A stretch of DNA of 64,000 nucleotides from Spirodela intermedia (taxonomy: Eukaryota; Streptophyta; Magnoliopsida; Alismatales; Araceae), in assembly GCA_902729315.2 (NCBI GenBank), contig LR746281.1, positions 2,354,501-2,418,500 of the forward strand, written 5' to 3'. Shown in pieces: positions 1 through 57,125 of this stretch; within the stretch, counting starts at the first letter, position 1, and each line of letters opens with the position of its first letter. The notes beneath the pieces were generated by a model that did not search any database, was not told the DNA's origin, and saw nothing but the letters and a program-made list of their open reading frames with translations. Both the position numbers and the translations under genes were made by a program.

Positions 1-1095
1 AATTGGTAGAGGATTGATGATGTGGTCGTTATTTGGTATTTGGTGCTAATAATGGTGATGGATGAGTGTCCACAACTTATTATTTGGTTGGTCAAAGCTA
101 GTAAATATTATAGTATAATGATTGCCTATATAGTAATTTGATTACTTATTTCATGAACAACAAAATAGCTAAAAACCCAAAACATTATCTAGCTCCTTAA
201 GAAATGAATATCTAGATATAATCTTTGTACAAGATTAAGGGACTCAAAGAGTATGACTCTTATGATATTGGATGTAGGTTGGGGTCCAAACCATTCTAAA
301 ATTTGTATGCAAAATTCTCTTATGTTGTTTTCTACACCACAATTATAACATTTGAACTTAGTTATTCTAATTTGCTCAATTATATTACCTATTTGAATTC
401 TATTCTCAATGGTCTACTAAGTATCAATAAGTTGAATCTTGTTTTAACTAAAATTCTAAAATGTCCACATACTTAATTTTGAAGATTAAAAATTATAAAA
501 TTAGAGTCAATATCCAGTGATAAACACAATTAAGTCTATTCACTATTTGTCCTAGAAGACATCCCCTGTCACTAGAAACTTTCTCTATTTATCTATCTAT
601 CAATGGATGTTTCTGCATTAACATGAGCAAAAGATTGAGATTGCAAGTGTGGAAGTCAATGCTTTGCAAGTGCATATGACGCCATGCACACATTAAGTAT
701 CAATGATGCATAGAAACCAAGGTTCAATCATAACAATATGGTATAAAAATTGAGGTTTAACAAAAACTTAGTTGCCTTGTGGGATCTTGAAGAAGATTGT
801 CACATCTTTTTTGGATTTTGAAACTGAGAAAGGGGGAATATGGCAGTAATTGTCTTACATCTTTAGGTGTTGGAGAGCACAACCAACAGGTTTTGTGGAT
901 TATTAATTTAATTAATATTTTTTAAAACATTTTTTAGAGCTACCCTCGATGATACGCTAACTTTGAATTTCAACTCCCTATTCTTATAGTTGACTTTAGA
1001 CAATGAGTCATAAATAAGGGTCACACTCAAGATGTTGAGATGTGGGTACACATGATGCAATGTGCTTTGCTGGACTTTCATATTCACACACAAAA

Positions 1096-1184
<89 letters not shown>

Positions 1185-1420
1185 GATACATCATGTGGGT
1201 GATGGTGAAATAGGAACATAACAAGATGCAGCCTTTCGTCAAACACTATCATAAAATCATATATATCCTTGATAAGTGCCATGGAAGTCAATCTAGTTCA
1301 CTTATGACACAAACACCAAAAACAGAGCACTCTAGACAATACTTATTGACCATCTCATATACAGGTAGTAAGTTCAATGTATATACAAAAAGTAAACTCA
1401 AGATAAATTAATCCAATTTA
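1..1420. repeat. Dispersed repeat R, copy 1 (left end outside window)
   Basis: AT-rich noncoding DNA that is clearly related to 39170-40830 and 50611-53020. Shared landmarks include the stretch around 975-1050 (an 'ataagggt..cactcaagatgttgag' core), the (GA)n tract that follows, and the segment around 1186-1280 with 'gatgcagcc' and 'gataagtgccat'. It has no coding potential beyond translated microsatellite. No LTR or TIR ends were recognised. It lies just upstream of the U-box gene, whereas the other two copies lie between decayed ATPase copies, so it is dispersed rather than part of one gene's flank. Confidence 0.7.
1101..1180. repeat. (GA)40 microsatellite
   Basis: An uninterrupted GA dinucleotide run of 80 bp inside repeat R. 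The other R copies carry GA or GAGT tracts at the corresponding place (around 40300 and 52458-52545), so the microsatellite is an ancestral part of the repeat. It produces an artefactual Ser-Leu repeat ORF on the minus strand. Confidence 0.95.
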
Positions 1421-35654: not shown

Positions 35655-35963
35655 TTGACTTTAGTGAAGACTACACCAGCCAAAAAGAAAAAAAAAAGTA
35701 GAGCAAAGCCTCCACAACAAGAGAGTAAAATACTTTTCAAGTTGGAGAAAAGCTTCCTGCCACATATTCATGAAAGCACCTTTATTGATTCTGTGGGGCT
35801 TCCACATGTGAGATCAAAATTATCAAGGCTTGTGAGATACTTACATGTTCCTCAACCATGTAGAGTGAAGCCCAAAAAATATGCACAACAAAGAGGGCTT
35901 TCTCAATTGTCCTGTGGAGATTCCATATGTGAGGCTAGGACAAAAAGAAAAAATGTTGTCTAG
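35655..35963 (+). pseudogene. Conserved ORF downstream of integrase (copy 2)
   Basis: 102 codons, Lys-rich at the start, then 'HESTFIDSVGLPHVR', 'YLHVPQPCRVKP' and 'EARTKRK'. The same frame is recognisable in the minus-strand element (28780-28529). A 1-nt difference after the CRVKP motif shifts the frame for about 25 codons between copies. No known domain recognised. Confidence 0.55.
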
Positions 35964-36311
35964 GAAAAATGTACCTACATGAGATACAAAAATAAAAGAG
36001 CAAGCTGGTTAAACTAGAGCTACAAGTCAAACATTTGTTGCATCTAAGCCAAACATGACAAGGATTGAAAGAGTAGAAGTTGGTCTCAAGGTAAAGTAAA
36101 CTAGTGAGAAATGGAAGTATGGAGGTTCTATTCTTTGTCTAATGAAAACTTACATGTCTAAATATGAAACGAGTTAATTTTTCTTTGAGTTTTGTGAAGT
36201 ACATGCTCATAATTATGCAGTTAATGATTAAGATGAACGTAATGAAATCATAGCAACACGATCATTCTTAATCCATTACTAAGGAACTAGCAATGAGAAA
36301 AGTTGGGGGTA

Positions 36312-37315
36312 TGATAACACATGAATAATGTGTTGGAATACACCTTAACTTAGTTAATTTTATTTTTTATGATATTATTAATGTGTTGTTCACATCAATC
36401 TTTATGAATTTTAACATGTTTCAAAGTATCTTAATGCTTTAAATATTTCTTAAAATTTTATGAGATTAATCTCCTCATACACATTTGGGTGGCTTATTAA
36501 ATAGGATTATGATAGACATTGAATATACTTTCGTGATTTTAAAAATTATTTTCCAGTGATTTTAACATTTTATACCTCAATTTGTGGGCACTTCATCAAC
36601 AGCTGTGATGCAGCAGCCTAACTGTTACTCACAAGAGTGAGGAGTCAGCCTTGTGACAAGAGAAGAATCCAACAGCTTAGGAGAGAGCATAGAAGACCAT
36701 TGATCTAACGGAGTGTGGCCTTGCAAGGGATGAATCCACCAAAACCTTTGAGCAGTTTCTCTCGTGTGAGTGAAAGGTGAGAGAGAGAGGAGAGAGATGG
36801 AACACCACCATATACACTTGAAGAAAACTCATGTCATTATCTGCTTTTTTGATTAAGAAAACCTTTGGCAATTCAGCCAACCTAGAGGGTTTAGGTTTTC
36901 TGAGCTCCACATCATGTGAATGCAAGTGTGTCAATCTGGAGTGCCCCTCATCTTGCTTGAACGAGGTTTCTCTCACTAAGAAAAGTTTCATTTATTTTAT
37001 GTTAGATTTTAGTTAAGAATTTAGGAGTAGAAGTCACGAACACTGGATGGTCGTTTTTATGCCGGTCAGATCTGAGAAATCGGATCTAGACTCATCACCC
37101 CCCTTCTCTCTCTTTCAGTCCATGACCTCTCATTTCCTTTTTAGATATATCCTTCATTAGAACAAGCACGAATCAGTAAGCCCAAATTTCTTAAGGAGAC
37201 GACTTGACTCGTTGCTATCTATGAGTATTTTGTGAATCAAATTACAACATAACTCATAGTATTTTGATGGAGGAGATTAAGGACTAACGACACCAGTAGA
37301 AAATCATACTCATCA
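36312..37315 (+). repeat. 3' LTR of the plus-strand gypsy element
   Basis: Preceded by a polypurine tract (AGTTGGGGGTA). It begins TGATAACACATGAATAATG and ends CTCATCA, about 1.0 kb. It is followed directly by intron sequence of the ATPase copy A, which can be aligned with 54170 onward, so the insertion point is exact. Confidence 0.85.
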
Positions 37316-38467
37316 CCTAGTGAATAAAAAACACATATTCAATGGGCACACTACAAGAGTAAGTTTAAAAAGTTGAGACAAGCCAAAGACTACAATGAAA
37401 TAAGTGTACGAAAAAACCTCATGTAGTAGATGTCAATTTTTCATTCCTGTAGTGTAATTACAAGAGTAGAGAAAACAAAGCGTCAACTATAATAAAATGG
37501 TTATCGCACTTATGGACCATTTCATGAACGTTAATTTTTTATCCAAATTCCATATCAAACTTTTAACTGTTTTTCCCAAATTGCCTTGCTGCAAAATGAC
37601 TCAGCTACAGTTTCTCAAATCAACAATCTGAGCTTAAAATCAATTGTATTTTTAGGATGATAGCCGCGCTGTGGACAAAGCTCTTTTTATCATTTCTGCA
37701 AGGGTGAAAGAGTGAACAACGATGCTTTTTAACGAGGGTCGCCGGCGCCTGCCCGCGCGCGCCACGGGCGGAGCGCGCTCGTGCAGGTTCAGAGCGATGT
37801 TCCCTAGCAGCTTTCACGTGAACCCCATAGCCCCACGCAGCGCAGGGGAGAGCGCGCGCGTCAGCGGGCGAATCCTCCACTTTGAAAGCCCAACGTACAT
37901 AGCAGCGTACACCGTCTATCTGTCTGTTTACGGTATGCAGGAGTTCCTTTTTTTAATATAGTTCATTGAACGTATTCCGCTTCTAATTTTCTAGTTCTTA
38001 TTTATCTTGCTTGACGACTATGTGACAGTATCCACTTCCAAAAAAGGAAAACTTTTAACAGGACCATCTCAAGTGCAGAACTAAATAAGATTTGAACGGA
38101 TAGATGGTGCGAACATCGCGTGGTAACCTGAGTTGAAGGATAACAGCCGAAATCAGCTCGATTGCGAGGGAAAGGGAAGGTACTTTGGTGTGCGGAGGGC
38201 CCCTCAAAGGCATATGAAACTAACTGAGAACGGTAAATGAAGAAGCGGACACTAATAAAACCATGAATTCCTCACCAGGTGCAACACATGTCGAGTGTTG
38301 GAACACAATTCAATCATAATTCGTTGTGAGAACAATCGGAGAGGAGCGGACGGGCAGGCATGAGCTACGCGGTAGACACCTCGTATTAAGTCGGTGTCGA
38401 TCAAGGGGCGGCCGAGGCGTCTGGCTATCTCCTTCTTCTTGGCGACCTTGCTGTTTGACACGCCCAT
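37316..38467 (-). pseudogene. ATAD1/MSP1-like AAA-ATPase copy A: exon 1 and part of intron 1
   Basis: Exon 1 spans 38467-38380 on the minus strand (29 codons plus 1 nt, donor AG|GTGTCT). It begins MGVSNSKV and continues KKKEIARRLGRPLIDTD, the N-terminal signature of plant ATAD1/MSP1-like ATPases, which extract mislocalised tail-anchored proteins from the outer mitochondrial membrane. Between these two blocks the family normally has a hydrophobic membrane anchor and more residues; here it is absent, so even this exon is shortened. The intron sequence 37320-37640 matches 54180-54490 of copy B, but a gypsy LTR cuts it at 37315 and no later exon follows. The donor phase fits the acceptor phase of exon 2 in copy B. 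Confidence 0.8.
37721..37880. other. GC- and CpG-rich block inside copy A intron 1
   Basis: About 160 bp with a very high density of CpG and GCGCGC runs, in sharp contrast to the AT-rich intron around it. It is open on both strands but matches no family I know. It lies between intron parts that align with copy B, where I see no counterpart, so it may be a captured fragment or an old promoter-like island. Confidence 0.5.
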
Positions 38468-38810
38468 GGCCTGCGTTCTTCTCTAACCGCAGCGAGAAGA
38501 AAACAGGGAAGAGAGAGAGAGAGCAAGATTACACGACGATGGCGGTTCCCCTTTATTTCCTCTTTGGTCACGTCGTTGACTCGTGTGAGACGACCAGAGA
38601 TGGACAGGCGTTCTTCGCAAAAGTGTGAACTATATGGCAAACTCTCTTGTTGGATGGCTTCTCCACAAAAACTTCCGTCAGATCGGCTCTATTATAGAAA
38701 ACATTTAAACTAAAACACAAAAAAATCCCGCAGGCTTCTAAAATCACTGCTATTACATATTTTCCTGGTTTCAGATTTCTAATGGATCAAGTTTGATTGA
38801 AATTATGATT
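38468..38810 (-). promoter_or_regulatory. 5' UTR and promoter of ATPase copy A
   Basis: Aligns with 43603-43930 upstream of copy C: the segment next to the ATG ('atggcctgc' on the plus strand), a GA-rich tract, 'gacgatggcggttcccttt', and 'gtgtgagacgaccagagatg'. Conservation of the block between two otherwise rearranged copies marks it as shared upstream sequence. No clear TATA box was identified. Confidence 0.6.
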
Positions 38811-38860
38811 GAAGTCATATTTTGGAAGCCTAAAATTTATTTTTAAAAAAATATTTGTGT

Positions 38861-38959
38861 AAATATATAATTTTAATCCATTTTAAAATACATAAATATA
38901 TAATTTTAATCCATTTTAAAATACATAAATATATAATTTTAATCCATTTTAAAATACAT
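38861..38959. repeat. 33-bp minisatellite, three units
   Basis: Three perfect tandem units of 33 bp (38861-38893, 38894-38926, 38927-38959; unit starts AAATATATAATTTTAATCC). The corresponding place upstream of copy C (around 44005-44050) has only one diverged unit, so the expansion is specific to copy A. Confidence 0.95.
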
Positions 38960-38989
38960 AAATATATATATTTCAAATGCAAAAAAATA

Positions 38990-39190
38990 TTTCTACATAA
39001 ATTCTCATTCTTCAAATAATAAGCAAAAATCTGACACAATTATTGAAATTATTTAAGACTGAAATGTATCACATATATATACGCATACATATCCTTTGTT
39101 AAAGATAATTTCAAATAATTTTGTTAAGGACAAGTACAATGTAATAAAAGCCACGTTGAACTCAATGATTTTGATTGTTATGACTTTCAC
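38990..39190. repeat. Single unit of the ~235-bp repeat upstream of copy A
   Basis: Resembles the monomers at 44215-46600, with landmarks 'atgtatcacatatat', 'aaagataatttcaa', 'aatgtaataaaagccac' and 'ttgttatgactttcacaag'. It links directly to repeat R copy 2, as the array upstream of copy C links to R copy 3. Confidence 0.7.
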
Positions 39191-40830
39191 AAGAAGGTGA
39201 CTTCACCTTATATCAAAAGAAAAGTACAGGGAAAGCCACAATGTCCACATATACCCTAGTTAACATAAGCTTAGAAGTGAATTGAGTGGTCAAAAGGAGA
39301 AAAAAATGAAGTGATGCTCAAGACATCCATGGGGATGTGTCTCCAATACCTAGAGCTGTTGCCCAAACTTCAATAGAGGTATGTACCTAGATATAGTTTT
39401 TGCAGAAGATCAATTAAAACCCAAAGAACATATCTTTTTGGGTAATGGATGTAGGCTGGGTGTCTGAACAACTCTAAAATGTCTGTATGTCATTCTCTTA
39501 TATCATTTTCTACATGATAGTTTTGATCTTTCAAATTAGCTGTTATACTTATCTCAATTCAATTATCTATTCTATTTTATTCTCAATGGTCCACTAAGAT
39601 TAATAAATGTTATTTTAATCATGTTGCAGATAATCTAAAATCAGACCAATGACTACTAATTCCACCTGATTAGAATGTTTAATTCCAAGGATTATAACTT
39701 GTGAAATTTGTGATAAACACGAGTCTATTCACTCCCGTCATATACCACATTAGGCACCCAATAGAAACCTTTGACTTTCTCTATTTACCTATCTATTGGC
39801 ATATATCACGGCATGCAGATAAGCCTAGGATTAGTGGTGCATGTGCACGAGCCAAGGTTTAGTAGTTGAGCATAACGACATGCACATAAGTTATGGTATC
39901 AGCACGCATAGAACCCAAGATTCAATGATGACTTCCGTAAAAGGCTCAACATTCACCAACAGATTAGTCACCTTGTTGGATGTTGAAGAGTGAAAGATGG
40001 AAAAGTGAACTGTGATACTACTGGACTTACATCTCTAGGTGTTGGAGCATACAACCTAGAGATTTTGAGGTAGATTACTAATTGAATTAACATTTTACAG
40101 TGTTTTTTAAAGCTACACTCATTAATACACTATCTACCTTTGACTATCAACTCCCTATCCTTATAGTCGACTTTAGACAATGAGTCATAGATAAGGGTGC
40201 CACTCAAGATGTTGAGGTGTGGAGACATGTGATGCAATAGGCCTCATTTGAATTTCACTTTCACACAAAATAGGGGGGGCGAGTGGGAGGAAGGGAGGAA
40301 GACGGAGAGAGAGAAGATGTATTTATATAAATTGATATGTGCGTGATGGTAAAATAGCAAGTTGCCCGGATGCAGCCTCTGGGTCAAAGCCCATCATAAA
40401 TCATATGGCATAGACAAGTGCCATGTAAGTTACTTTGGTACAATCACGACATGAGACGCCACCAAATCTTCTATAGCACTGTAAATAGCTACCCACTAAT
40501 CATCCAATATATTGTAGTAAGATTATCACATTTCCAAAAAATCTCAACTGCATTATCTCTTCTTTGCCCATTTCATATAATACCAAAACAAAATTCCAAA
40601 CTTTGGTATTTAAGAATCCTAATTCGTACTATCTCTCTCCCCCACATTGTTTGACTCACCCACTTTGGAATTACTTGCATGTTTTGTCAACTTGCATCCA
40701 TTGATAAGTAAAAACATCTATGTAATATATATTCACATGTAGAATATGCATTTCTAGGTGATAATAAAATGACATAGATAGGTAAGAGGACAACCAGGTC
40801 CAATGTGGTTTTTGGGCTTGGTCTAAAAAG
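39170..40830. repeat. Dispersed repeat R, copy 2
   Basis: Aligns with 50611-53020 from 'aaggtgacttcacc' to 'tttttgggcttggtc', and with 1-1420 over its central part. No protein-coding content; the minus ORF at 40671-41024 has no family features. It forms part of the spacer between ATPase copies A and C. Confidence 0.75.
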
Positions 40831-41871
40831 GACAAAAAGAAAAGTTGGCCCACTAGGCCCAAGTCTAGAATTTGATAAGCTTTAGATACCAGGATAGGTT
40901 CCTCATTTTTAACACATGACAGTCCCAAGGTCACCCGTTCAGCCAGTTGGCACCCCAAGGTATAGTCCACCATTAAACACACTGAATGGAACCTTAAAAA
41001 AAGTTTATTAAACAAAAATTCCAAGCTGTATTTCGATTACATATGAACACCCAAGACGCTAGCAAGATGATGAGCGGATGGAAATAATTTCATGCCAAAC
41101 TCTTAAAAATAAAAAAAATCTGATGATGGCATGCACACCGACATAGCTGACCAAGTTGACCGTGATTCTGACCACAATTCATGCTTAAAAGATAATTTAT
41201 ACTTACCAACATTAGCGCCTTCCTCAACCATTGATGGTTAGAACAAGGAAAATTGATCAGACTGATGGCCTGCCTGATCAGCTAAAAATTACATTTTGTT
41301 TAAAAAAGAAGCTAGAAGTCCTCCATGCATCATTGTTGATATAAGAGGATTGATTTCTGCCCGATGATGTTCTTTGGGAAATAGTAGTCCATTAAGCTTC
41401 CTCCCATGAAGCAAAACCGAGGCTCAGAAACCCCCAAAAATATGAAATACAACCTCATTTTCCAACGTCAAAAGTTGATCTCCATAAATATTTTTATCAG
41501 ATTTAGCCTGACGAAATCCAACGGAAAACTTTGAGCTATGCCCAGAGGTAATTAAGAGCATTAATGTTGACCATTTTTTCCTTTCCCTCCTCCCTCTTTT
41601 TACATCATCTGGGTTATTTTATGAGTTTAGGCCTGTTTTTTCACTTGTCTGGACGTGGATTTGTCTGATTTTGTCAATCATTCCTCTTATGGAAAGGTAG
41701 GCCTTCGACTTTAGGTCGTATTGAGATATTATGTGTATATTTCTATTGTTAGGACTACAGGGGCCGGATCAAGGGTAGGCAGCTTCTGGTGGCTGATTGG
41801 CAACGATGCCATTGTTGGATATGCCAGACATGAGCTTACAAATCTCCAAGATGCGCTGGGCCAGACAACTC
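40831..41871. other. 3' flank of ATPase copy C
   Basis: No gene seen. Since the last coding exon of copy C ends at 41872 on the minus strand, its 3' UTR must lie here. The plus-strand ORF at 41721-41903 is a shadow of that exon. Confidence 0.5.
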
Positions 41872-43602
41872 TCATCCTCGCCATGCCTCGACAGTCAAGA
41901 TGAGGTCCCAAAATTGGTAGTTTCTCACCGCCGACTTGGTCCTCTTAGAAGGTAAGATGGCATTCTCTAGATCTCTCTGCGACAGTGCCCTTGGTGTCTA
42001 CAACAACAGAGAGAGAGAGAGAGAGAGAGGATTAGATGTAGAGTTGATAATTCAGTAATCTGAGTACCTAATTAAAAAAAAAAGTGCAATTGATCTGCTT
42101 CAACAAGACCACACTGAACGCACACAAACATATGATGGTAGAGAAATAATTATAAATACTTAAACTAAAATATTTAGGAAGACCTGTGAGAAGCTATTGA
42201 AGCATGAAATGTGTTACCTGGTGAAGATGACCCAAAAATAGCCAGTCACAACACCTGGAGAAAAATGGTATTTTTCCTCTCCCCAGATTATTTAACACCC
42301 TCAGATTTGCTTGGACATCCAACAAGGAACACTGATCCTAGGTATAATCAGATGTGGTCCTCTATAAGTATAATCTAGAGAGAGAAAAGAAAGATTTTTG
42401 TGTCGTTAACAGGGGCTCCTCTCCTGTCCAGGGAAGTGGCTGCTGATTCAAAATTCACTCTAGTTTCCCTCTAAAAAGTAGATGGTAGTGATGCAGGGTA
42501 TATATTTTGGAAGGAGAACTTAGTGAGGGGATCTACCTATGAACTTCAGGCCTTTCTCTCAATTTGCACATCATGGATTACAATCACTCAAGACCTTCAA
42601 AAAAATTCTATGATTAAAGAAGAGCGCATCTTATGGGATTCAACAATCGACCGTCACCTATAAAAAACAACTTATATCCTTGGAATATCGAAAAATAGGC
42701 AACATAATCGAACTCAATCATGGAATAAAGATTTCCTGGGTCTTGAGGCTCCAAGTGGAAATCCTCAAGTCGTTGTTTGCAGAGTGAAGCATTTTGAAAT
42801 ATTTATGCCCACATGTTGAAGTGGTGGTAGAAGTCTAAGCTATACGACTAAAAAAGGGAAAGAAGATGTCAAATGCTACTACAGTCTTATGAACAGTCTC
42901 TTTGAAAGGAATAGGTAGGATTCTTGGGAGAAATCCGATGAATTTGTCAACATCCTCTAGAAACCAATCAAATTTATAATAGAATAGCTGGATCCGGTAC
43001 TGGTATATCAAATCAGATTAGCTTCCCAGGCTTTCCCATGGCAATTCTTTTCAAATTATTTTAACCGAAAATTGTTCTAGTCATGGATAACATAGAAGTA
43101 GGATAGGATATCCGGAAGTTAAAACTTAATTGTGCAGAGGAGGGTCATCAGAAAAACAAAAAAGACAAAAAATCTTGCCACAGCCCTGGACTTATACATC
43201 ATTTGATTCACTTCCCAATTGATACTTGAAGACTCAAGACCAAAATGTTGTCTGCCATCTCCTCACCTCAGCCCACCACCTATCCCACCTCTTAAAAAAA
43301 AAAATCTCTTATTGGATAGTAGTAGTTCTGCCATTGAGAAGACTCCAAGTAAATTCCTTATGTCAAAAAGACCTCGTCTATATAGTTATATCCGCATAAA
43401 AATTGTTTTCAAGCTGCAGTATCCACGCAAATTTCAAAACCAAGTACTACATCAAAGAAAAAGAGGGATGTACTCACGGAGGATTTTTTCCCTTGTTTAT
43501 CTTCGTGCAATAATTCTCTGAGAGGGAAATAGGCAGCTCGCTTGCAGAGTCCAAACAGGTCTGATCCAGTGAACCCTTCACACATGCCGGCTATGTGATC
43601 AT
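41872..43602 (-). pseudogene. ATAD1/MSP1-like ATPase copy C: start codon fused to last two exons
   Basis: The 5' UTR homologous to copy A runs exactly to its ATG (43602), then jumps into the penultimate coding exon. Following ATG-ATC-ACA-TAG, the sequence reads IAGMCEGFTGSDLFGLCKRA and AAYFPLRELL, the C-terminal helical lid of the AAA domain, to a clean donor at 43478 (TCC|GTGAGT). A 1480-bp intron ends in a pyrimidine-rich acceptor (GTTGTTGTAG), and the last exon 41997-41872 reads TPRALSQRDLENAILPSKRT and ends after 41 codons. Phases match. Exons for the membrane anchor, Walker A and Walker B are all missing. An in-frame ATG at 43585 could give a 77-residue product. Confidence 0.85.
42007..42028. 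repeat. (GA)11 tract beside the copy C 3' splice site
   Basis: On the minus strand this is a CT run directly before the acceptor of the last exon of copy C, so it forms its polypyrimidine tract. Confidence 0.85.
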
Positions 43603-43930
43603 GGCCTGCCTCCCTTTCCCTACGCAGCGAGGAGCAAACAGGTTCGCGAGAGAGAGTGAGCGAGACTACTCGACGATGGCGGTTCCCTTTTATTTCATCT
43701 TGATCATGTCATTGACTGGTGTGAGACGACCAGAGATGAACACTTCGCAAGAATGTGAACTTTGGCAAGCTGCTATGCATGCTATCTTTTCCATCAAAAA
43801 CATCGGTCTGACCAGTCTCTCTCACACAACAAATTCAAACTAAAACACCAGACGTATTCTTACCATGAAATTCCACCAGGCTCTTAAAATGACTGCTATT
43901 AAATATTTTCTTACTTTGAGATCTCTAACG
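43603..43930 (-). promoter_or_regulatory. 5' UTR and promoter of ATPase copy C
   Basis: Homologous to 38468-38810 of copy A, including the GA-rich leader and the 'gacgatggcggttccctttt' block. It is now positioned in front of a truncated coding sequence. If still active it would transcribe the fused copy C. Confidence 0.6.
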
Positions 43931-44214
43931 GATTAAATTTTATTTAAATCATCATAAAAATTATATTTTGGATACCTGAAATTTAATCGTAAAACAATAT
44001 AAATGCGTAAATATATCATTTCAATGAATTTATGAATACATAAATATATTTTCCAAAAAATAAAAAAAATCTACTTAAATCCGCGTGCTTCAAATAATGA
44101 GTAAAAATTGGAAACTAAAATATTCAAACAATTTTTAGACCTAAATGTGTCACATATTTATAGCAGACCAATATTTTAGGAAATAATAATTCTAAAGATA
44201 AACACAACGTAATA

Positions 44215-46600
44215 AAATTCACATGAAATTTAAAGAATTTTCTTCTTGTGATTTTTAATAAAGTAACGATTTTTTTCTAAAATCATATCTATGGGATTGA
44301 TATGACAACTATTAGTCTGATTTTCCAACAATTAATAGCCAGAATGCACCGAAAATAAATTATTGAAATAATTTTAAGATCTAGATGTGGCTCATTTATA
44401 AAACCATATCTACACATTGAAATGAATAATTTCAAAGATAGATGTGATGTAATTAAAGTCATGTTGACTTCAAAAATTTTAATTGTTACGACTTTTACAA
44501 GAGGAATTAAAGTCCCTATGACTTTTTCAAGAGTAATGTGATGTGACAACTAACATTTCAATTTTTTAAAAAGGAATGGCCATTGTACCGCAATTCAATT
44601 ATTCAACTAGTTTTCACCCCTAAGTGCATCACATGTGTGTAACCATACAGATACTTTTTTGAAAAGAATAATTTCAAAGATAAACAAGATGTAAGAAAAT
44701 GAGTGTCTAATTACAAGTTTTTAATTCCTATGACTTTCATGAGATTAATAAATGTTCTGTAAGGCAATATCTATGGGATTATTGTGACATATGATAGTCT
44801 GATTTTTAAAAAATCAATAACCATTGCACACACCAAATCAATTATTCAAATAGTTTTTAGGCCCTAAGCATGTCACATATGCATAACCAGACCTATATTT
44901 TTGGAGATTATAATTTAAAAGATAAGCACAATGTAATTTAAGGCACATCAATTTTTTAAAGATTTAAATTTTCACGAATTTATGAGGTTAATGGACGTTT
45001 TACATCGTTATATCTGTGTCTGATGTGACAACTAATTCTATGATTTTTAGCATCAAATAGCCATTGTACACCCTAAAGAAGTTATTTAAACAATTTTAAG
45101 ACCTAAATGTGTCACATGGAAATTTTAATTTTGAAGATAAACATGATGTAATGGAAGGTACATCAAATTCAAATATTTTAATTGTTATAACTTTCATGAT
45201 ATCGATGAATCTTTTTTAAAGTTAAGTATATGAGACTAATATGACTTATAGGAGCCTCATTTCCAGCAATTAATTGTGTAATATATATAACCATTCCATA
45301 CTTTTTGGAGAAATAATAATTTCAAAGATAAAAACCCTGTAATAGAAAGTCACATCAAATTGTTGTATCTTTTACAATTGTTATGACTTTTACAATTGTA
45401 ATTACAGAGTTTATAGAAAACCCTATAAGCATTCCAATTGTTATGACTTTTACGAGATTAATTAATGTTTTTAACGTTATAGTCATAGCAATTAATGGGA
45501 TTGATGTGGTAGCTAATAGTCTGATTTTCAAACAATTAATAGTAATTGTAGATGCCAAATCAATTTTTCAAACAGTAGTAAGATCTAAATGTGTCACGTA
45601 CGCACAACCATACCCATACTCTTCAGAAGGAATAATTTCCAAGATAAATAGGATATAATAAAAGCCATGTTGACTTCAAAGATTTTATTTGCTATGACTT
45701 TTGCAAGAGGTTGTTTTCTGAAGTTATATCTATTGAATTGATGTGATGGCTAACCATCTGATTTTACAGTACACCCCAAATCAACTATTCAAATAATTTT
45801 AAAACCTAAATGTGTCACATATGTATAACCATACCTATACTTTTTGGAAATAATAATTTCAAAGATAAAAATGATGTAGTAAAAGGCATGCCAAATTCAA
45901 AGATATTTACTGCTATGACTTTTATGAGATTAATAAATATTTTATATGATTATATCTATGGGATTGATGTGGCTGCTAATAGTCTGATTTTCCAGCAGCT
46001 AATAGCCATTGTACATCCCCAAATCAATTATTCAAAGAGTTTTAAAATCCAAATTTGTCACATCTATACAACCATATCTAAAGCTTTTAGAAAGCATAAT
46101 TCCAAAGATAAACACGATGGAATTAAAGGCATGTCAACTTCAAATATTTTAATGTGTATGACTTTTACAAGATTAATGAATATTTTTTAAGGTTATATCT
46201 ATTTGATTGATGTGACAACTAATTTGATTTTCTAGTACCTAACAACCATTGTACACCAAAATTATTTATTCAAACAGTTTAAATATCTACGTGTGGCACA
46301 TATCTATTACTATACCTATACTTTTTGAAAAAAATAATTTCAAAGACGAACACAATGTAATAAAAGGCACATCAAAGTTTAAAGATTAATGAACATTTTT
46401 CATAGTTATATCTATGGGTTTGATATGGCAACTAATAGTATGATTTTCTAGTACTAAATAATTATTGTATACCCCAAATCAATTATTAAAGTAATGTTAA
46501 GACATAAATGTGTCAAATACATATAACCATACATATACTTTTTAGAAATTTTAATTTCAAAGATAAACATGACATAATAAATGACAAGTTAACTTCATCG
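44215..46600. repeat. ~235-bp tandem repeat array, about ten degenerate units
   Basis: A recurring block with landmarks 'atgggattgatgtgacaac', 'gattttccaacaattaatagcc', 'cctaaatgtgtcacatatg', 'aataatttcaaagataaac' and 'gttatgacttttac'. The first landmark occurs near 44292, 44536, 44770, 45013, 45228, 45499, 45733, 45958, 46200 and 46411, so spacing is about 210-270 bp. Units are diverged, so the array is old. ORFs here (e.g. 45810-46190) only reflect the repeat. A LINE truncates the array on the right. Confidence 0.9.
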
Positions 46601-49600
46601 AGCCTCCTACTTTTGACAAGGTCTAAATGTGGTGCAACAAGAGATAAAGAACTATAAGGATATATGAGCGCATTGATCGCTACTTCACTAATAACATTAC
46701 ATTAGTACAATGTCCCATATTAGTCGTTCTTACCACACTATAGGTCAAATCATATGTCAATCCTCATTCTCCCTAACTCAAGAGCTAGTATCCCTAGACC
46801 CTTTTTTAGGTTTCAGAATATGTGGACTTGACATGAAGGCTTCTAGAGCTGCATGCAAAGTTATTAGCATATGGATATCTTAGACTCTCTTATAGAAAAC
46901 CTTAATTACAAATTGAGGAATCTCAAACTTCATCTTAAATGGTGGAACCAATATGTATACATGAATATCCACACTCAAGTAGAGGAGCTGAAGAAGGAGC
47001 TAGTTGGGGTCAAGAGACAATTACATGCTTGATGAATTGACAACACTTGGGAGAGACGAGTTTGAGTGAGTGAGAAGCTAGAAGAAGCTGTGCAATGATA
47101 AGAGATATATTATCTCCAAAAATCATGCATCTAGTAGTTACGTGAGGGTGATAAGAACACACATTTTTTTCATACCTTGATCACACACTAATCTCAATTC
47201 GATTATACATCTCTTCTAGAAGTGTATGACCAGAACACATCTCGTATGTAAGAGACAAGAATTACGTACTTTCGTACCCTTCTTGCCTCTCAGTTGATTG
47301 AGATCTCTGAGGATATATTCTCATCAATTCTATTCCTAGTTACCTACTAGGAAATCTCATCCATTATGACCATACCTACTAGGGAGGAGATCTGAGATGT
47401 GGTCTTCTCAATAAGTAGAAATCAAGCACCTAGGCTTGATGATTTTTCAGTGAATTTTTATTCAACATGTTGGGACATCATCAGAACAGATTTAATTCAT
47501 GACATCAAAGAATTCTTTCACCACAAAGTATTCCCACAAAGTTAGAAAGTCACTTTTATTACACTCATACCAAAGGTGGTCAACCCAACTTTTTTTAAAG
47601 ACTTTCGACCCATTAGTCTTTGTAATGTATGTTATAAAATTGTATCCAAGATCATTATAGCATGATTGAGTATTTTTCTTGATAAGCTCATATCTATATA
47701 GTAGTGTGAATTTGTCAAGAGATGGCACATTCATGATAACATCATACTAGTTCACAAACTAGCATAATCCCTTAACTAAGACATGTGGTTTCAACGTCAT
47801 CATCAAACTAGACATGGAAAGGGTTTTTAATAGGATCGAGTAAAATTTTCATACTAAAATACTTTGATGCTTTGGATTCACCGACAAATTCATTGACCTA
47901 ATCAATGCATACGTTAGGGAGAACTATTTCTCCCTATTGGTGAATGACACTTCCACACCTTTCTTCACAACCACACAAGGGTTACGGCAAGGTGATCCCT
48001 ACCACCCACTCTCTTCATATTGGTTGAAGAAGTCCTTAGTTGAACCCTCTCCTAAGCGGTGACACGTGGGCTTATCCAATCATATCATTCAAAGAGGGAT
48101 TGCCCAATCATATCATATTCCTTGTTTGTGTATCATGTAATACTTTTTCTTAATAGATACAAAGTGTCCATTAGGGGACTCACGACTATCATCTCAAGTT
48201 ATGAGCAGGTTGTATGTCAACTCAATAATGCCTCAAAAAGTAGCTTCATGGTGGCATCTTCTATCACTATTAGTACCATACGATACATACAAGACCTAAT
48301 AGGGTTCTCGCGTGGTCATCTACCCTTTAATTACCTTAGATGCCCCATCTTCCTCGGACAAACTCAGGTTCATTACTTTGATTCCCTTTTGTACAAGTTG
48401 AGGAAGAAACTTGATTGATGAAAACTTCAACTTCTATCCCTAAAAGGTTGCATTCAATTGATACACCATGTCCTTATGAGTATGCCCTTATACCTACTTA
48501 CGGTACATGAGGTACCAAACACCGTCTTATAATCTGTGAGGTAGATTTACACTTCTTTCTTATGAGATAGTCAGCTTGACGAGCCTCATCATCAACATCG
48601 AGTTTCTTGGGAGAAAGCATGCCGACTGATGGACGAGGGTGGTCTAAGGATTAGATGCCCTAAGGATATCTTCGACATGCTTCAGAGGAAACTTGTATGA
48701 TGGATGAGGACAATGAGACCAACCCTAAGGACTTTTGTGTTAGCTAAATATAGTGATTAGGCCAACCAATTTGTTGATATAAAAGGAGGGAAGCGATGAG
48801 TAGATTGACAAAGACATTAGTTGTAGATAAGGCTTTTAATTTAGTGGTGAGTGGGACGAAGCACTATTAGTGCTTGGTATGACACTTGGTTTGCGGACAT
48901 TCCCCTAGCCTCCTCTACCCCTTTTATGTTGTCCTGGCCTTATCTCATGGTGGCTCAGCTTCTCGATGGAGATACTAGTGTACTCTTCGAGAGGCACAAA
49001 CTCTCATTAGATTTACTACTAGAGATCTCGTTGATAGAGTTGGGCCCTAGTGATGATCAACCCATGTAGACTCTTACCTTAGATAGAAGTTTTTCTTGTA
49101 GTTCTTCTTAGAATTACTTTAAAAATTATTCTCCAAAGTAGTTTTGGGGATATCTCATTTGACACCCTATTATCGTACCTCGAGTCTCTCTCTTCATATA
49201 GAAATTGATGTACCATGGACTTCTTACGGATGGTCATATGTCCATCACAAGACATAACATTTATTCTAGGTGACATTATTGTCCTATCACTTCGAGTAGT
49301 GAAATTATAGGTGACTTATTTTTTCATAGTGTTGTTGCTACAGAATGTTGAAACTAACTCTTACTAAATTAGTTCCCAACATTTTATCATTCTCCATCTC
49401 TTACACGCCTAGAGATTTTCAAGAGTCTTTGATTCACCGCAAAGTTCTAGAGACAACCCTTACCTATGTATTTCCATAGCATACATGCTATGGGAGATAT
49501 AGATGGGAAGAAATCTCTCTCGTTTTACAAGTCAACAAATGCGTGCCTCAGAGATCATGAGACACATCACACAATGGCTGCGAAGTAGCCATCCTTTGGT

Positions 49601-50515
49601 GTCGCCTATAGTGACATGCTTGGCCTCCATCTGTGAGACCCTTAGGACTTGAGGAGTCCAAGTCATGCGTACGCACATAGAGATCTCCACTCGGGTCGTT
49701 CAATGAAAACTATCACTAGTTGGATGCCTAAAGCTGAACGTCAATGAAGCAGCCCAAGAAAATCCTGGAGCTATAAGAGGAGGAGGCATCCTGTGAGATC
49801 TTACGGGGAGTATTCTCTTTGCCTTCTCTTATTTTTATAACATTCAAACTAACACCGAAGTAGAGGTTACGGCGATACGTGACGGTTTACTCCTTTGTGA
49901 GGAATGTAATCTCCACAATATCGTAGTAGAATCTGACTTACGAGTGCTTGTTCAGATGCTATGTGCATATTCATGTCCCCATTGGCAGCTAAAAAGTACT
50001 TGGACTGACATCATGCATTATAGAGGGAGGATCAAAGTAATTACACACTAATTATGTGAAGGGAATCAAATGACAGACGTGCTCGCTACACATGCAGTAT
50101 GCACCCGTCTATGCTCTGTATTCTCCTCTTAAAAAGAGATGCCAGCCAAAGCTCGAGGTCGACATCATTTGAAGTAGATCGGCATGCCAGCACTTTGTAT
50201 ATGGTGAACACAGATACTTGTTGCCCCCCAACAGTGATAGATCACTTAGGTCAACCTCCAACCAGCACACGACCTAGCGTATGTAGCATCGCCAATACAA
50301 AGTTATTCTCACACTATGAATGGCAAGATTTCCTAACAGTCTCAACCAAGATGATCAACCTCGGTCGCATCTACCACGTCACCTTTCATTTATCACTTTC
50401 CAAAGAGAGCTATGTCTTGTCACCCCCAGTTCCCATGTATGAGACTTGGGGATAAACACTTCATCAACATCAATATTATCTACCCTTAACTACAAAACAA
50501 AACTCTTGTTAAATT
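46601..50515 (+). mobile_element. 5'-truncated L1-type LINE with RT, zinc-knuckle region and RNase H
   Basis: Plus strand, many stops. The end of the endonuclease lies near 46660-46830 ('ERIDRYFTNN..LVQCP' and 'RPFFRFQNMW'). RT motifs follow: '[19 protein letters not shown]' near 47600, 'HDNIILVHKLA' near 47730, 'IKLDMERVFNRIE' near 47805 and 'TTQGLRQGDP' near 47978; the catalytic F/YADD is replaced by 'VYHV' near 48127. 'YLRCPIFLGQ' lies near 48330. The zf-RVT-like part reads 'STISAWYDTWFADIPLA' near 48860. An RNase H domain of the plant L1 type lies about 49750-50090 ('AIRDGLLL', 'VVESDLRVLV', 'EGNQMTDVLA'). It lies within the 235-bp array. No clear poly(A) tail or target duplication found. 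Confidence 0.85.
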
Positions 50516-50610
50516 TTTTTTTTTTTCTAAAGTTAAATCTATCAAATTGATGTTATTGATGTGAATTTGATTTTTCAATAGTTAATAGTCATTTTACAAC
50601 CCAAATCATG
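50516..50610. repeat. Remnant unit of the 235-bp array right of the LINE
   Basis: 'aaagttaaatctatcaaattgatgt' and 'gatttttcaatagttaatagtcatt' match the array monomer, showing that the LINE interrupted the array and that the array once joined repeat R directly, as it does near copy A. Confidence 0.75.
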
Positions 50611-52485
50611 TCATCTAAGGAGGTGACTTCACCTTGTGTCAAAAGAGAAGGAGAGGGAGAGTCACAACATCCACATACATCCTCAAAGTAATTAACACAA
50701 GGTTAAAAGTGAATTGAGTACCTAAAAGGAGAAAAAATAAGTGATACTCAGGACATCCAATAGGGAGGTTATCTTCAATATCCAAAGTGAATTTGTAGTC
50801 AGGTTTAAGTTTTTGGTAGGCTAGAGACATTAAAGCTAATGGGGGTTTGATAGTGTCATCATTAGTATTTGCGTAGTAGGAGGTAGTAAAGACAATGGAT
50901 GAGTGATAATACCTTAACTATTGTTGTGGGCCAAAGCCAAGAAAGATAATAGTGGGGTGATTTCCCTTAAAGTAATATGCTTGGAAGTTTCCTTAGCACT
51001 GGAGTGGATAAAAGTCCAAAAAACTAGTTATCACCAACATAGGTAAGTTTTCTAGATATAATCTTCATGGAAGATTAATGAAAACCCAAAGAGTACAGCC
51101 CTTGGGATAGTGGATAGAGGCTAGGTGGCTAAAGCACCTTAAAATTTATCCATGTAATTCTCTTATGTTGTTTTCTACACAATAGTTGTAGTCTTTGGAA
51201 TTAACTATTCTAATTATCTTGACTAGAAGTTTTAGTTATAAAGATTATATCTCATGAAATTAGTAATAAACATGATTAATTCTTTCAATCCCCCTCCTAC
51301 ACTACATTAGGCACCAATAGAAACCTTCAACTTTCTCTATTGAAACATCTATTGGCATATGATATTGCATGCTTATAAGTCAAGGATCAATGGTACATGT
51401 GCATGAACCAAGGTTAAGTAGGTGATGTAACCCATTTGGATCCCAATTCAAGTGGACCAAAGAGCTAAGAACCATTAAGATACAAGTTGTTTCATTTTTG
51501 GCTTGAATTGGCCTAATAACAAATTCAGACCATAGTAAAACACATCTTAAACATATCCAAATTTCATTTTCTCAATTTTATTTTTTTCTCCCTTTCAACC
51601 ATTTTGAATTTATTTTAATAGACCAAAATTCAAATTTCAGGCACATAATTATAGAACCCCCTATTATTAGGAGCATCCTAATTAATTTCTGGTCTAGTTA
51701 AAGGCTCCCCTTGTATTCTTAGAGTCATTTAAGCAATTATAATATTTTTTTCTACTTCTAGTATATTCTAGCACCCCTTGTGGATTCACATAACCCTTTT
51801 CATCATGTGGACTCAAAATCAAATCCTTGGACTCAAAGGTCAAAGTATTTTCAATGTGTAGATTCAATGTGATATTATCTTCAATAAAATCATATTTCTC
51901 ATGGATTCAAGGATGTTATTTTGACTCCATATGACTAGAGCTGCATCACAACTTCATCAAATCTCCATTTCATCAACTTCCACTATGTCATGAGTGTACA
52001 TGACAGCATCCACAAAAGTTTGGGATCACCATGTGTAAAACCCAAGGTTTAATGATGAAAATATAATGCAAAAATAACATTCATCAACAAATTAGTCACC
52101 TTTTTAGATCTAGAAGAACATTGTCATGTCTTTTTTGGATTTAGAAACCTAGAAAAGTGAACTATGACACTAGTGAACTTACATCTCTATGTGTTGAAGA
52201 ATTGAGGCAAGATATGTTTATGTAGATTAAAATTTTAATTAAGATTTTTTTAACATTTCTTAAATCTACGCTCATTAATAGGCCATGTAAATTTTGAATT
52301 CAACTTCCTATCCTTATAGTTGACTTTAGACAATAGATCATAAACAAGGGTGTCACTCAAGATGTTGAGATGTGGAGCCATATGATGCAATGGGCTTTGG
52401 TTTAATTTTACTTTCACACACTAAATAAAGGGGGAGGGTTGGACGGAGGGAGGTACGGAGAGAGAGAGGGAGTGAGTGAGTGAGT

Positions 52486-52539
<54 letters not shown>

Positions 52540-53020
52540 AAGTGAGAGACATATATATTGGCATGCCATGTGGGAGATGGTAGAATATATGATGTAAGCC
52601 AATTTGGTCAATTAATGACATGACATCCCAACAAATCTTCAAGAGAACTCTTAATGGTTTCCCACTGATCATCTAGGATATGGGTAGTAAGATTAGAACA
52701 TTTACAAAAAAACTCAATTGCATGATCTCTCCTTTTCCCATTTCATATAGCACTGAAACAAAATTACAAGTTTAGTATGTAAGAATCGCAATTCCTCTCT
52801 CTCTCTCTCTTCTCTCTCTCATATAGACGCCAACTTTGGAAATACTTACAGGTTTTGTCAATTAGCGTCCGTCATACATAAAAAAATCTACCTATATGTA
52901 GTACCTATTCACATTGGAAATATGTCTTCATGCTTATAGTTTAAATTCGATTATAATTTGACATAGATAAGAGGGAAATTAGCCCAAATGAGGTTTTTGG
53001 GCTTGGTCCTAAAAAGGATA
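50611..53020. repeat. Dispersed repeat R, copy 3
   Basis: The longest copy. It contains the GA/GAGT microsatellite at about 52458-52545 at the place where R copy 1 has (GA)40. It aligns with R copy 2 from 'aggtgacttcacc' to 'gggcttggtc'. No genes; the Ser-Leu ORFs on the minus strand are translated microsatellite. Confidence 0.75.
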
Positions 53021-53734
53021 CATAATGAACTGACGAGGCTCACCTAACTCACGAAGGTGGACTGCAAACTGAAAATACAGCATAAACAGGATACCATACA
53101 AAATCTACATTGACGTTTCAGCTACTCAATAACTTGAAGGTCATGTTAAAACCACTTTGACAAAATATCTTATGCACTATAACTGAGTTAGTATGAAAAA
53201 CAAGCATAAATTCAATCTGAAAATGTTTCATTCCATTTGGGTCACTAGCTGGATATAAAAATCCGAAAATGCCTGTCAGCAGGCTATGATTCCCCAGCTA
53301 GACTCCCATTTCTGGTCATATCCTTGGTTGAGACAGACTATGGACCCAACATTTACAACTCCATGGCAGGCACAGCAGATATATAATGATGATGAAAATA
53401 CATGAAATTCAAAACAAAAAGATTAAATAAAATACAAAATATAAGAACGGAAGATACATCTTTAATGGACTGCATCGTGTACATGTTTTCAAGAGCAAGA
53501 AAACTTGCAGTGTAATGAATACACAATTAAAAGAGATGAGGAAAACTGATTAGTCTGCTGGAAATCATCAAAATGAGCCCTTGACTGCAAGCTCACTACA
53601 ACCAGAAACCTGCTTCCAGAAATTTTGATATGTAAAAAAACAATGATTGTAATACACATTTAAAAGCCTAAACCATTTAAAGCATCTGGATAATAATTTC
53701 ACCATGATTCTCCCTAATCCATTTACTCATCCAC
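53021..53734. other. Spacer between repeat R and exon 2 of copy B
   Basis: About 0.7 kb without recognisable exons. A complete ATPase copy B would have its later exons here, so they have been deleted. Intron-like sequence may remain. Confidence 0.5.
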
Positions 53735-53976
53735 GTAGATAGCTCCTGATTCTTTTGCTATGGCTTTGACGAGCATTGTCTTCCCCGTCCTGGTGGTCCA
53801 TATGGTAACACAAGCTTTTGTGGACTACGAAGTTTACCATATGCAAAGAGCTCAGGTTTCCGCAAAGGAAGAATAACCAATTGATATATCGATTCCTTAA
53901 TGCCTTCCATACCACCAATAGAGTCCAAACTCCACGGTGACCTGGTCAGAACTAATAGCATCGCATGCGATTATAT
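53735..53976 (-). pseudogene. ATAD1/MSP1-like ATPase copy B: exon 2 fragment with two frameshifts
   Basis: On the minus strand, after an acceptor ..GCAAG|AT at 53976, the sequence reads IIACDAISSDQVTVEF, then (after an extra G) DSIGGMEGIKESIYQLVILP, LRKPELFAYGKL and GPQK-like sequence. It reaches the Walker A region GPPG, where one missing base shifts the frame before TGKT; then AKAIAKES-like sequence (MLVKAIAKESGAIY) follows to a possible donor at 53734. This is the start of the AAA domain of the plant ATAD1/MSP1 family. The two opposite 1-nt shifts, including one inside the nucleotide-binding loop, make it non-functional. No exon 1 lies upstream within the aligned intron. Confidence 0.85.
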
Positions 53977-53978
53977 CT

Positions 53979-54185
53979 TGCCAAAAAAGACCTATGAAAA
54001 GCTGCAAATATATTCCCAGCAAATAAAAATCACATATTCAGCAGATTGTTGCCAAAAAAATCTATGAAAAACTGCAAATATATTCCCAGCCAATAAAAAG
54101 CAAATATTCAGTGGATTGTTGCGAAAAAAAGTCTATGGAAAGCTATAAATATATTCCCAGTGAATAAAAAGCACATATTCAGCGG
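53979..54185. repeat. ~69-bp tandem repeat, three units, in intron 1 of copy B
   Basis: Units start near 53979, 54048 and 54118, each with 'gccaaaaaa..tctatgaaaa', 'gcaaatatattcccag' and 'aataaaaa.cacatattcag'. The gypsy LTR in copy A is inserted in the equivalent of the last unit, so the number of units in copy A is unknown. Confidence 0.85.
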
Positions 54186-54490
54186 GGTACACTGCAGGAC
54201 TAAGTTTCAAAAGTGCATACAAGCAATGGACTTCAATGAAAATAAATATAAGAAAAGATCCCAAGCAGTAGATGTGGGTGAAAAAGGAATAAAACTTTTC
54301 AATCCTACAATGTAATTACAAGAGGAGAGAAAACAAAGAGTCAACTATAATGGAATGGTTTTCCAACTTAGGGACCATTTCATGAATGTCAATTTTTTAC
54401 CCAAGTTCCATATCAAACTTTAACTGTTTTCCCAGATTGCCTTGCTTCAAAATGACTAATTTACAATTCCCCCAATGAATGAACTGAGCT
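54180..54490 (-). pseudogene. Intron 1 sequence of ATPase copy B
   Basis: Aligns with 37320-37640 of copy A over about 310 bp (shared 'gtaattacaagag.agagaaaacaaag', 'ggaccatttcatgaa', 'ccatatcaaact' and 'attgccttgct'). This shared intron ties the isolated exon 2 (copy B) and isolated exon 1 (copy A) to the same ancestral gene structure. Homology stops near 54490, before any exon 1. Confidence 0.8.
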
Positions 54491-55600
54491 CATGAGTCTC
54501 TTTTGACTACTATGTTATCTTTTGATAAAGATTTATTAGTTTGTTACAAGACACTATTTACAACTCCATATTTGGCTACTTAGTATGTAATGTTGAGTCT
54601 CTTTTCAGAAAGATAAATTAACTTTCTACAATACATTGAGACCTCAAGTTATCTATATTATTATTCTCTTCTATATTTTAGGGTTTATAGTTACGATCTA
54701 TATGGATAATAATGACCTTACAGCCTAACCTTGCAATAGTTTTTAGAAGATTAATAAAAAAAATTGAGAAACAAATATTCTTCATTTAGATTGCGGCACC
54801 TCAATACTAAGAAAATATTTTAATTTCTCTACCATCTTAATACCATCTATATTATTACTCCCTTCTATATTTTAGGGTTATAATTACGATCTAAATGGAT
54901 AATAATGACCTTACAGCTTGACCTTGCAATAGTTTTTAGAAGATTAATAATTTTGTTTTTTTGAGAAACAAATATTCTTCATTTAGATTGAGGCACCTCA
55001 ATATTAAGAAAATATTTTAATTTCTCTACCATCTTAATACCAAATTCTTTTAATAAACACACACTTAAATATTATTTTTCTTTCTCATCATTCCATGTCA
55101 CAATTATGTCACATAAAGTAATAGAGTTGTATTTTCCTTGGAAGTGAGTATTTAATAAATAGTGTATGGCCTCCATTACTAGGTATATAACCTATCTCCC
55201 ACATCCCTTTCTTAAATATATCAGATCAAACTCTTAGTGATTGGATGAGTCTACATAAAGTTTCCTTTAATTTGCGCACTATATTACCTTTAGTGCTAGT
55301 TTCATATCCTTGAGGAACATCGAAATAAATTCATTCATTAAGTTCTCTAAGTAAAAAGGCTTTTTTGAAATGAATTGTTGTAAAATGTATCATAATTGAC
55401 TGAAAAAGAAAGTACATAATAATCAATTTTAATACTTTTAACATAATTTAAAAGTATGCTAATGACATTGATATGCTCCTAATAGTTATTTTAAGTCATA
55501 ACAAATTTTAATACTTTTAAAACAAAATTTTAGAAATATGCTAATGACATTTCATTCAAAATACATAATAAATTTGAGTCAATACACAAGAAAAGTTTGG
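54491..55600. other. AT-rich DNA with a ~197-bp direct duplication
   Basis: 54651-54847 and 54848-55042 are near-identical tandem copies ('tctatattttagggtt' and 'gaccttgcaatagtttttagaagatt' in both), differing by scattered substitutions and small indels. No gene was found in the region. Confidence 0.85.
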
Positions 55601-57125
55601 TAATAAGTCTCTATTATGATGAGTTAATAGTTAGTTCAATGATATGTTTTATGAATTAACTCATGATAATAGTTTTATATTTTTCATTAAATTAGGAAAA
55701 AATACACAAATAATCTGAATTTAATTATGTTATTTTATGTGATTTGTATATTTATATTCTCAAGTGAAAATAGAGTGAAATAAAATAAATAAATAATATT
55801 AAAAAAGAGGGGGAACCCACTAGCCAATCAACACTCGACAATCAACTTAGAGGGGTGGAGCTAAGCTAGGTTCAAGTGGCTAAGGACCCACAATTATGTG
55901 TGTGTCACTCCTCTTCCATGCCATTGGGCTGAACTAATTAATGGAACAAGGTATAGTCTCATCACATGTGTTTTGTGTGGGGACAAACTACTTGGTATAA
56001 CATACTCCCTACATAATCCTAACCATTTTTTTATGGGTGAAGAAACTCAAATACATAAGATAGACTATACTTATACAGATCTAAAACTCCCTAAAATAAT
56101 TTTTGTGGGAACTTCTATTTTTAGTCTGCAGTTTTTCTACAAGGAAACAGTCAATGAGAACAATTGAGAAAAATAATTGATTCTCGACATAATCTTTATC
56201 AATAATAATCAAGGATCATCATTAGCAACTGATCAAGGATTTTAGATAGAAAAATGAGAACTTTGTTATAAAATTACCTCTTATTTTTTGACAAATGAGT
56301 TGTTGTTGACGGCAAAGAGATCCACCTAGAGATTCATTACCTGATGTGCAAACATGAAGAAGAAGCTTCTTGAAACATGCTCACCTCCAATGATCTCAAC
56401 TCCATCAAGTGACAGCCACCAAAGACCCATCTTCATCAACTAAGTGATAGCTGGCAAACACACTTCACTGCCACCTATATTTTCTCTCTGAACTTTACAT
56501 AGGAATTCAAAGAGTGCCTACATTGTGCACATCCAATGAGACCCTTCGAGGTTGTGAACATCTATCAGAAACTTTCTGAACATCTAGAATTTTGGCAATC
56601 ACCGTTGTGACATTGAAACTCTATTTTCTTTATTTAAACTCATTTAATATTTAAATTCATGATATTTTTTCTTGATTTTAATTTTTAAAATTCATCTTTA
56701 CTCCATTACAATTTATTAGTCATTTATAGATCTTGATTTCATCCATTAAAGCTTTTGAAATTACTTTTGTAGTAATCTCTAAGCAGATTGTATTTTCACC
56801 TAAATCACTATTCTTTGGGCACTGATATCTACCTTATGTTAGTTTCTATATTTATTTTTCTCTAATGTTAAAAAATACTTTCTTACAATCTTCTGGTCTA
56901 AGAATCATATAAAATCATATTATTTGAGAAAAAATTTAAAATCTTATATGATATATCATACATTCATATGATCAACTTGGAAAATTTTCACTATTGTTAG
57001 ATCTCTTTGTTGATTTAAAATTGATATATTTATATAGAAATAATTTTAAAAATAGAAAAAAAATAGTGTTTTCTAGTCTTATAAATGTTAAATGTGTAAC
57101 TTAATATACAACAATTAAGTCCTCA
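55601..57125 (+). mobile_element. Diverged solo LTR of the 1.63 kb family
   Basis: Begins TAATAAGTCTCTATTATGATG and ends near 'aatatacaacaattaagtcctca', parallel to TGATAAGTCTTCATTATCATG and 'catacaacgactgagtcacgtca' in the family. The internal AT-rich arms and the middle (e.g. 'gagggggaacccactagcc', 'gtgtcactcctcttccatgcc') align but are much changed. About 1.5 kb, without internal element sequence. Probably the oldest full-length member here. Confidence 0.65.

Follow-up and report, generated by a model that had tools for sequence, protein, structure and literature searches.

Remnants A, B and C beside an intact ATAD1/MSP1-like AAA-ATPase gene of Spirodela intermedia: very probably an array of duplicated pseudogenes

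Three segments on the minus strand of a 64,000-nucleotide stretch of the Spirodela intermedia genome (the window, G000:C18:2354501-2418500) resemble different parts of one gene, that of an ATAD1/MSP1-like AAA-ATPase, and raise the question of whether they are decayed tandem duplicates or gene pieces assembled in some other way. With very little doubt, they are duplicated (unprocessed) pseudogenes that form an array next to an intact parent gene. The segments are termed remnants A, B and C (Table 1); coordinates are on the scale of the window, with negative values lying to its left and values above 64,000 to its right. Searches covered the genome (136.5 Mb in 32 contigs) and a wider local region of 163.5 kb.

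The intact copy, which the original prediction proposed to look for elsewhere in the genome, was identified about 25 kb away. It lies outside the window on the same contig and on the same (minus) strand as the remnants, 23-28 kb to the right of remnant B. When exon pieces of B and C were used as queries, a single non-self locus on the same contig, the parent, stood out clearly as the best match. For exon 1 of A together with its flank, the top match was copy C, followed by the parent locus in three pieces. By tblastn, A exon 1 matched the parent locus with 61% identity over 23 residues and C exon 5 with 68% over 28. The introns of the parent have GT/AG ends throughout, and its five exons form an unbroken open reading frame (ORF) of 396 amino acids (aa), the product of which is 100% identical over 396 aa to an annotated S. 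intermedia protein (P0004). An AAA domain (PF00004, residues 123-251) and an AAA lid (PF17862) were detected, and a hydrophobic N-terminal stretch followed by GPPGTGKT (Walker A) and IIFIDEVD (Walker B) was read directly in the sequence, without a helix predictor. In having an N-terminal hydrophobic stretch together with a single AAA domain that carries both Walker motifs, the parent is like ATAD1/Msp1, an AAA-ATPase of the outer mitochondrial membrane that extracts mislocalised tail-anchored proteins, an activity that the parent may share. The remnants lack most of the ATPase. Chains of ATAD1/Msp1 in the PDB match the parent in one stretch of 255-308 residues (8vxt, 284.5 bits over 35-342; 5w0t, 278.2 bits over 60-314), and p97/CDC48-type entries outrank them in whole score with two stretches each (6chs, 168.7 + 158.3). 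Comparison with other monocots was made at the protein level; relatives among the best 120 of 7041 proteins were from Wolffia (92%), Colocasia (85%) and Anthurium (87%), the last being named ATPase family AAA domain-containing protein 1.

No second intact ATAD1/MSP1 gene was recognised in the genome-wide protein search, the 75 rows of which were classified only in part, and the gene is apparently single-copy in this genome. Rows outside the array other than the parent were 30-67% identical, with the top values limited to stretches of about 30-45 residues. The strongest of these, C9:10528771 (60% over 188 aa), and the C1/C9 matches were judged by eye to belong to another AAA subfamily. Four ATAD1-like proteins of 649-674 aa from Macleaya, Heracleum and Apium (P0001, P0002, P0003 and P0005) scored above or near the self-match of the parent, and two of them, from Heracleum, carry the adjacent numbers POM88_011234/011235; these long proteins may represent tandem duplicates of this gene that became fused, or were mis-joined, in those plants.

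All three exon-bearing remnants were confirmed at the places predicted for them. The best blastn scores to the parent were 433, 636 and 312 bits for A, B and C, against maxima of 31.0, 35.6 and 30.1 bits over 40 dinucleotide shuffles each. As a second control, 101 real 1.5-kb tiles from around the locus were searched, excluding those that start at 75000-85000; apart from A, B and C, only a simple GA repeat at 1886-1938 exceeded 40 bits. Far from being unrelated to ATAD1/MSP1, the pieces correspond to a single such gene in each of their exons and introns. Block boundaries were taken from BLAST blocks and pairwise alignments, except for exon 5 of copy C, which was read from a whole-length MAFFT alignment that misplaced blocks around large gaps.

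Based on BLAST of the parent against the region, remnant A was placed on parent 80911-83471 in several blocks (intron 1, exon 1 and 5' flank), and its 5' flank (38465-38901) is 74% identical to that of C. The promoter, exon 1 and intron 1 predicted for A are all represented, though the promoter is so named by homology only and the exon has lost the part coding for the membrane helix; one base is also added immediately before the donor. Remnant B was placed on parent 79801-81134, again in several blocks, and contains the expected exon 2 with parts of introns 1 and 2. Its exon 2 has lost the acceptor AG (now AA, with another AG one base on) and carries +1 and -1 indels, a 20-bp deletion and further indels near its end, the -1 indel falling in the Walker A region. 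The intron block said to be shared by A and B is real (37316-37634 with 54156-54490, 78%). A tandem repeat of 70 bp x 2.9 occupies 53978-54183 within intron 1 of B, and the parent intron has one matching stretch. The fit between the phase of the A donor and that of the B acceptor, which had been taken as a further tie, is arithmetically possible but coincidental: intron 1 of the parent is in phase 0 on both sides, A has its +1 insertion and the AG of B is one base off, so that the fit results from two separate lesions and adds nothing to the homology.

Remnant C was placed on parent 76703-78590 and 82654-83470, and so represents the 5' flank and, after a gap, the 3' portion of exon 4 with intron 4, exon 5 and a short piece of the 3' flank. 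Its 5' flank continues through GGCCATG and then passes into exon 4; since the parent has ATG at both corresponding sites, about 4.05 kb apart, the junction is marked by three shared bases. Of the promoter, ATG and last two exons attributed to C, the 5' flank, exon 5 and the 3' part of exon 4 were verified; the junction ATG does not share the frame of exon 4 and starts an ORF of three codons (MIT-stop). C could be a functional truncated gene, its 5' flank driving a spliced product of 77 residues that comprises the AAA lid and the C-terminal part. Its exon 4 piece is indel-free, matches PF17862 AAA_lid_3 (E=1.1e-9) and has an intact donor GT, the acceptor AG is kept, and from an in-frame ATG at 43585 a 77-codon ORF extends across the intron to a stop after the +1 shift of exon 5. 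However, the out-of-frame ATG comes first, exon 5 is frameshifted, and the divergence at codon positions 1 to 3 of C (0.206, 0.187, 0.335) gives no clear sign of extra constraint, all of which makes a functional C very unlikely. Slightly less probable still is a living C in which an ATAD1/MSP1-type 5' flank, joined by deletion to a spliceable ORF for the AAA lid and C-terminal part, would yield a small protein that could modulate the hexamer of its intact neighbour.

The gene pieces are separated by homologous spacers. Spacers S1 and S2, which flank copy C, are homologous as predicted, and to them is added a 243-bp satellite, which forms an array upstream of C and is present as about one unit upstream of A (38982-39187). 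The "235-bp repeat" of the prediction is, at a guess, either the S1/S2 homology or this satellite. A genome search with S1 gave 7 rows including itself, all within this locus, and a 379-base satellite stretch gave 9 of 9 rows in its own array; S3 gave 8 rows, five in this locus and three short weak ones elsewhere. The possibility that the spacers are merely dispersed repeats was thus not borne out, and at this search sensitivity they are judged to be local. A genome DNA search with the remnant intron block returned only itself and B and missed the parent intron block that local BLAST had found; "found only here" is therefore valid only at the sensitivity of that search. The interval from S1 to the 3' flank piece of C (40833-41667) matched only itself in the local region. 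The LINE-like (long interspersed nuclear element-like) insertion between C and S2 is not part of the spacer homology, and its stretch 47000-49900 gave at least 47 rows across the genome, self included. A reverse-transcriptase-like frame was seen in it by eye; 24 of the 47 rows start no more than 70 kb from the first base of their contig, and its copies may be enriched near contig ends.

That B and C do not overlap on the parent gene would also suit split halves of one duplicate, hence only two extra copies. C, however, has its own 5' flank fused to exon 4, which the pieces of B, lying 5' of exon 4, would have to cross, and S2 separates B and C just as S1 separates C and A; a split duplicate is accordingly regarded as very unlikely. 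Capture by a transposon (Pack-MULE or Helitron-like), which would have moved the gene pieces and left the spacers as transposon sequence, draws on the dense repeats around the locus and on the truncation of A at 37316, adjoining an inverted-repeat block that ends at 37315. Against it, introns and 5' flank are kept (in C also a 3' flank piece), all pieces are on the strand of the parent, and, weak or short matches aside, neither the pieces nor their surroundings were found outside this locus, the spacers being nearly exclusive to it. The sole dispersed element tested, the LINE-like piece, showed no gene fragment, and capture, for which terminal repeats and target duplications were not sought, seems highly improbable.

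Duplicated (unprocessed) pseudogenes are a known category in plant tandem gene arrays. The array studied here resembles them in its kept introns and flanks (introns 1, 2 and 4 and the 5' flank can each be aligned in part with the parent), its homologous spacers, its local distribution, its frameshifts and deletions, and the intact parent nearby on the same strand, an open five-exon gene with an annotated product. All three remnants have their coding sequence disabled by truncation and frameshift, B also by the loss of an acceptor, and introns, which are absent from processed (retro) pseudogenes, are present. There is no categorical difference from the known arrays; the three remnants keep largely complementary parts.

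The most obvious explanation is that the parent gene was duplicated in tandem along with its 5' flank and introns, the copies lying between homologous spacers, and that at least three extra copies decayed, each by different deletions. Copy C lost everything from exon 1 to the middle of exon 4 through a single deletion of about 4.05 kb between the two ATG-containing sites. Copy B lost its 5' flank and exon 1, a second deletion reached from close to the 3' end of intron 2 into the spacer downstream, and small indels broke its exon 2. Copy A lost the stretch of exon 1 that codes for the membrane helix, acquired a +1 shift, and was cut off within intron 1 at the repeat edge. One spacer was lengthened by satellite expansion and the LINE-like insertion. 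Homology, order, common strand, local spacers, lesions and the intact parent are shown; the mechanism of duplication (unequal exchange), the order of the deletions and the absence of function we infer.

Kimura two-parameter (K2P) distances in the intron block (208 columns) were 0.225 between A and B, 0.292 between A and the parent and 0.211 between B and the parent; in the 5' flank (297 columns) they were 0.286 (A-C), 0.309 (A-parent) and 0.335 (C-parent). The distances of other intron blocks from the parent were 0.179, 0.194 and 0.199; those of the spacers were 0.275-0.355. Overall, the gene pieces diverge by 0.18-0.34, a figure that depends on the aligner (0.18-0.20 to the parent with one, 0.21-0.34 with another). 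The proposal to date the duplication from intron and promoter divergence thus yielded distances and no firm date. Codon positions 1, 2 and 3 pooled over A, B and C diverge by 0.195, 0.159 and 0.288, and noncoding sequence by 0.219. With a constrained parent and free copies, about half the noncoding value (0.109) is expected at constrained positions; positions 1 and 2 exceed it, and therefore no constraint on the copies shows. This codon test is only indicative, and no selection on the remnants is apparent from it.

Differences found only in S. intermedia, relative to Wolffia, Colocasia and Anthurium, occur at 6 sites, 5 of them covered by copies, which have the older state at three (B 135; C 328, 357), the Spirodela state at one (C 355) and neither at one (C 389). 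Spirodela and Wolffia differ from both aroids at 18 sites; 9 of them are covered, and there the copies share the duckweed state at 5 and have a different state at 4, none of them agreeing with the aroids, with 3 of the 9 in the doubtful start of A exon 1. Polarity is clear from other plants only at some sites (140, 383, 395). Based on these few sites, the duplications probably postdate the divergence from the aroid lineage and predate most of the changes specific to Spirodela. The rise of Spirodela is put at 63.4 million years ago in one report (PMC12707978).

Several observations weigh against so simple an account. No gene remnant was found beside spacers S3 or S4, where the sole notable match is the GA repeat, and the parent has no adjoining spacer copy; the history of duplication was therefore longer or less regular than three gene-plus-spacer units. 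The branching order of A, B, C and the parent is not separable, as the K2P intervals overlap, and third positions exceed noncoding sequence in divergence. Copy C, moreover, keeps both splice sites and its 77-codon spliced ORF, which leaves some doubt about its non-function.

Table 1. Coordinates of the remnants, spacers and parent exons on the window scale
Feature	Coordinates	Strand	Remark
Copy A, 5' part of intron 1	37316..38379	-	pieces match parent 80911-82444 (76-87%)
Copy A, exon 1 remnant	38380..38467	-	88 nt; 201 in parent
Copy A, 5' flank	38468..38889	-	promoter-like by homology only; three blocks to parent 5' flank (69-77%)
Spacer S1, between C and A	39191..40832	+	homologous to S2
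Copy C, 3' flank piece	41668..41711	-	91% over 45 columns to parent 76703-76746
Copy C, exon 5	41769..41997	-	acceptor AG kept, +1 frameshift
Copy C, intron 4	41998..43477	-	two blocks to parent, 73% and 78%
Copy C, 3' part of exon 4 (AAA lid)	43478..43601	-	86.8% to parent over 43454-43602
Copy C, deletion junction ATG	43600..43602	-	common to parent start codon and mid exon 4
Copy C, 5' flank	43603..44049	-	67% to parent 82654-83070; 74% to A
243-bp satellite array, upstream of C	44111..46597	+	
LINE-like insertion, between satellite and S2	46600..50460	+	dispersed; judged a LINE by eye; approximate ends
Spacer S2, between B and C	50617..53018	+	homologous to S1
Copy B, intron 2	53011..53693	-	runs into S2 about 20-30 bp short of expected exon 3 start
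Copy B, exon 2 remnant	53694..53977	-	pairwise alignment to parent
Copy B, 3' part of intron 1	53978..54490	-	parent match; contains local tandem repeat
Spacer S3	1..1309	+	starts about 56 bp left of window
Spacer S4	about -3757 to -2698		
Parent exon 1	82645-82445	-	201 nt
Parent exon 2	80754-80454	-	
Parent exon 3	79780-79622	-	
Parent exon 4	78761-78466	-	
Parent exon 5	77429-77196	-	

Elsewhere in the window, a single repeat family is present as nested copies of either orientation at 9302-10475, 17512-22669, 23969-27333, 55600-57121 and 60172-61904, with a near-palindromic unit of about 1.17 kb at 9307-10475 (86.5%); a further copy lies to the left of the window between S4 and S3 (about -1837 to -200). 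Two inverted-repeat pairs of about 81-83% were identified, 28093-30698 with 33801-36427 and 32253-33253 with 36312-37315, the latter ending where remnant A is cut off; an ORF at 34211-34582 is Ty3/gypsy integrase-like by eye. The only Rfam match at the gathering threshold was snoR71 (RF00097), a plant C/D-box small nucleolar RNA, at 6646-6752 (+) with 49 bits. Shortly after S3, a 412-aa ORF at 1950-3188 (+) appears U-box-like by eye, and no pieces of it were found elsewhere in the 163.5-kb region at E 0.01.

The Arabidopsis proteins APP1 (AT5G53540) and ASP1 (AT4G27680) are presumably of the ATAD1/MSP1 type. Two reports, the main texts of which contain 0 occurrences of the term "Msp1", describe them as mitochondrial ATPases affecting root reactive oxygen species (PMC5008728, PMC11174532). 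A third states that the dislocase function has not been found in plants so far (PMC8644595). The original view of a duplicated organelle quality-control gene decaying differently in each copy holds as regards the decay; the function is carried over from yeast and animals.

The array is not described in the titles or abstract openings of the literature searched. No general view is changed by it, and it is an ordinary but unusually clear case of duplicate-gene decay, whose remnants are sequences that gene finders could mistake for genes. With parent, spacers and a clean deletion junction all visible, it offers a readable record of the loss of tandem duplicates of a mitochondrial-type ATPase gene in a small plant genome.

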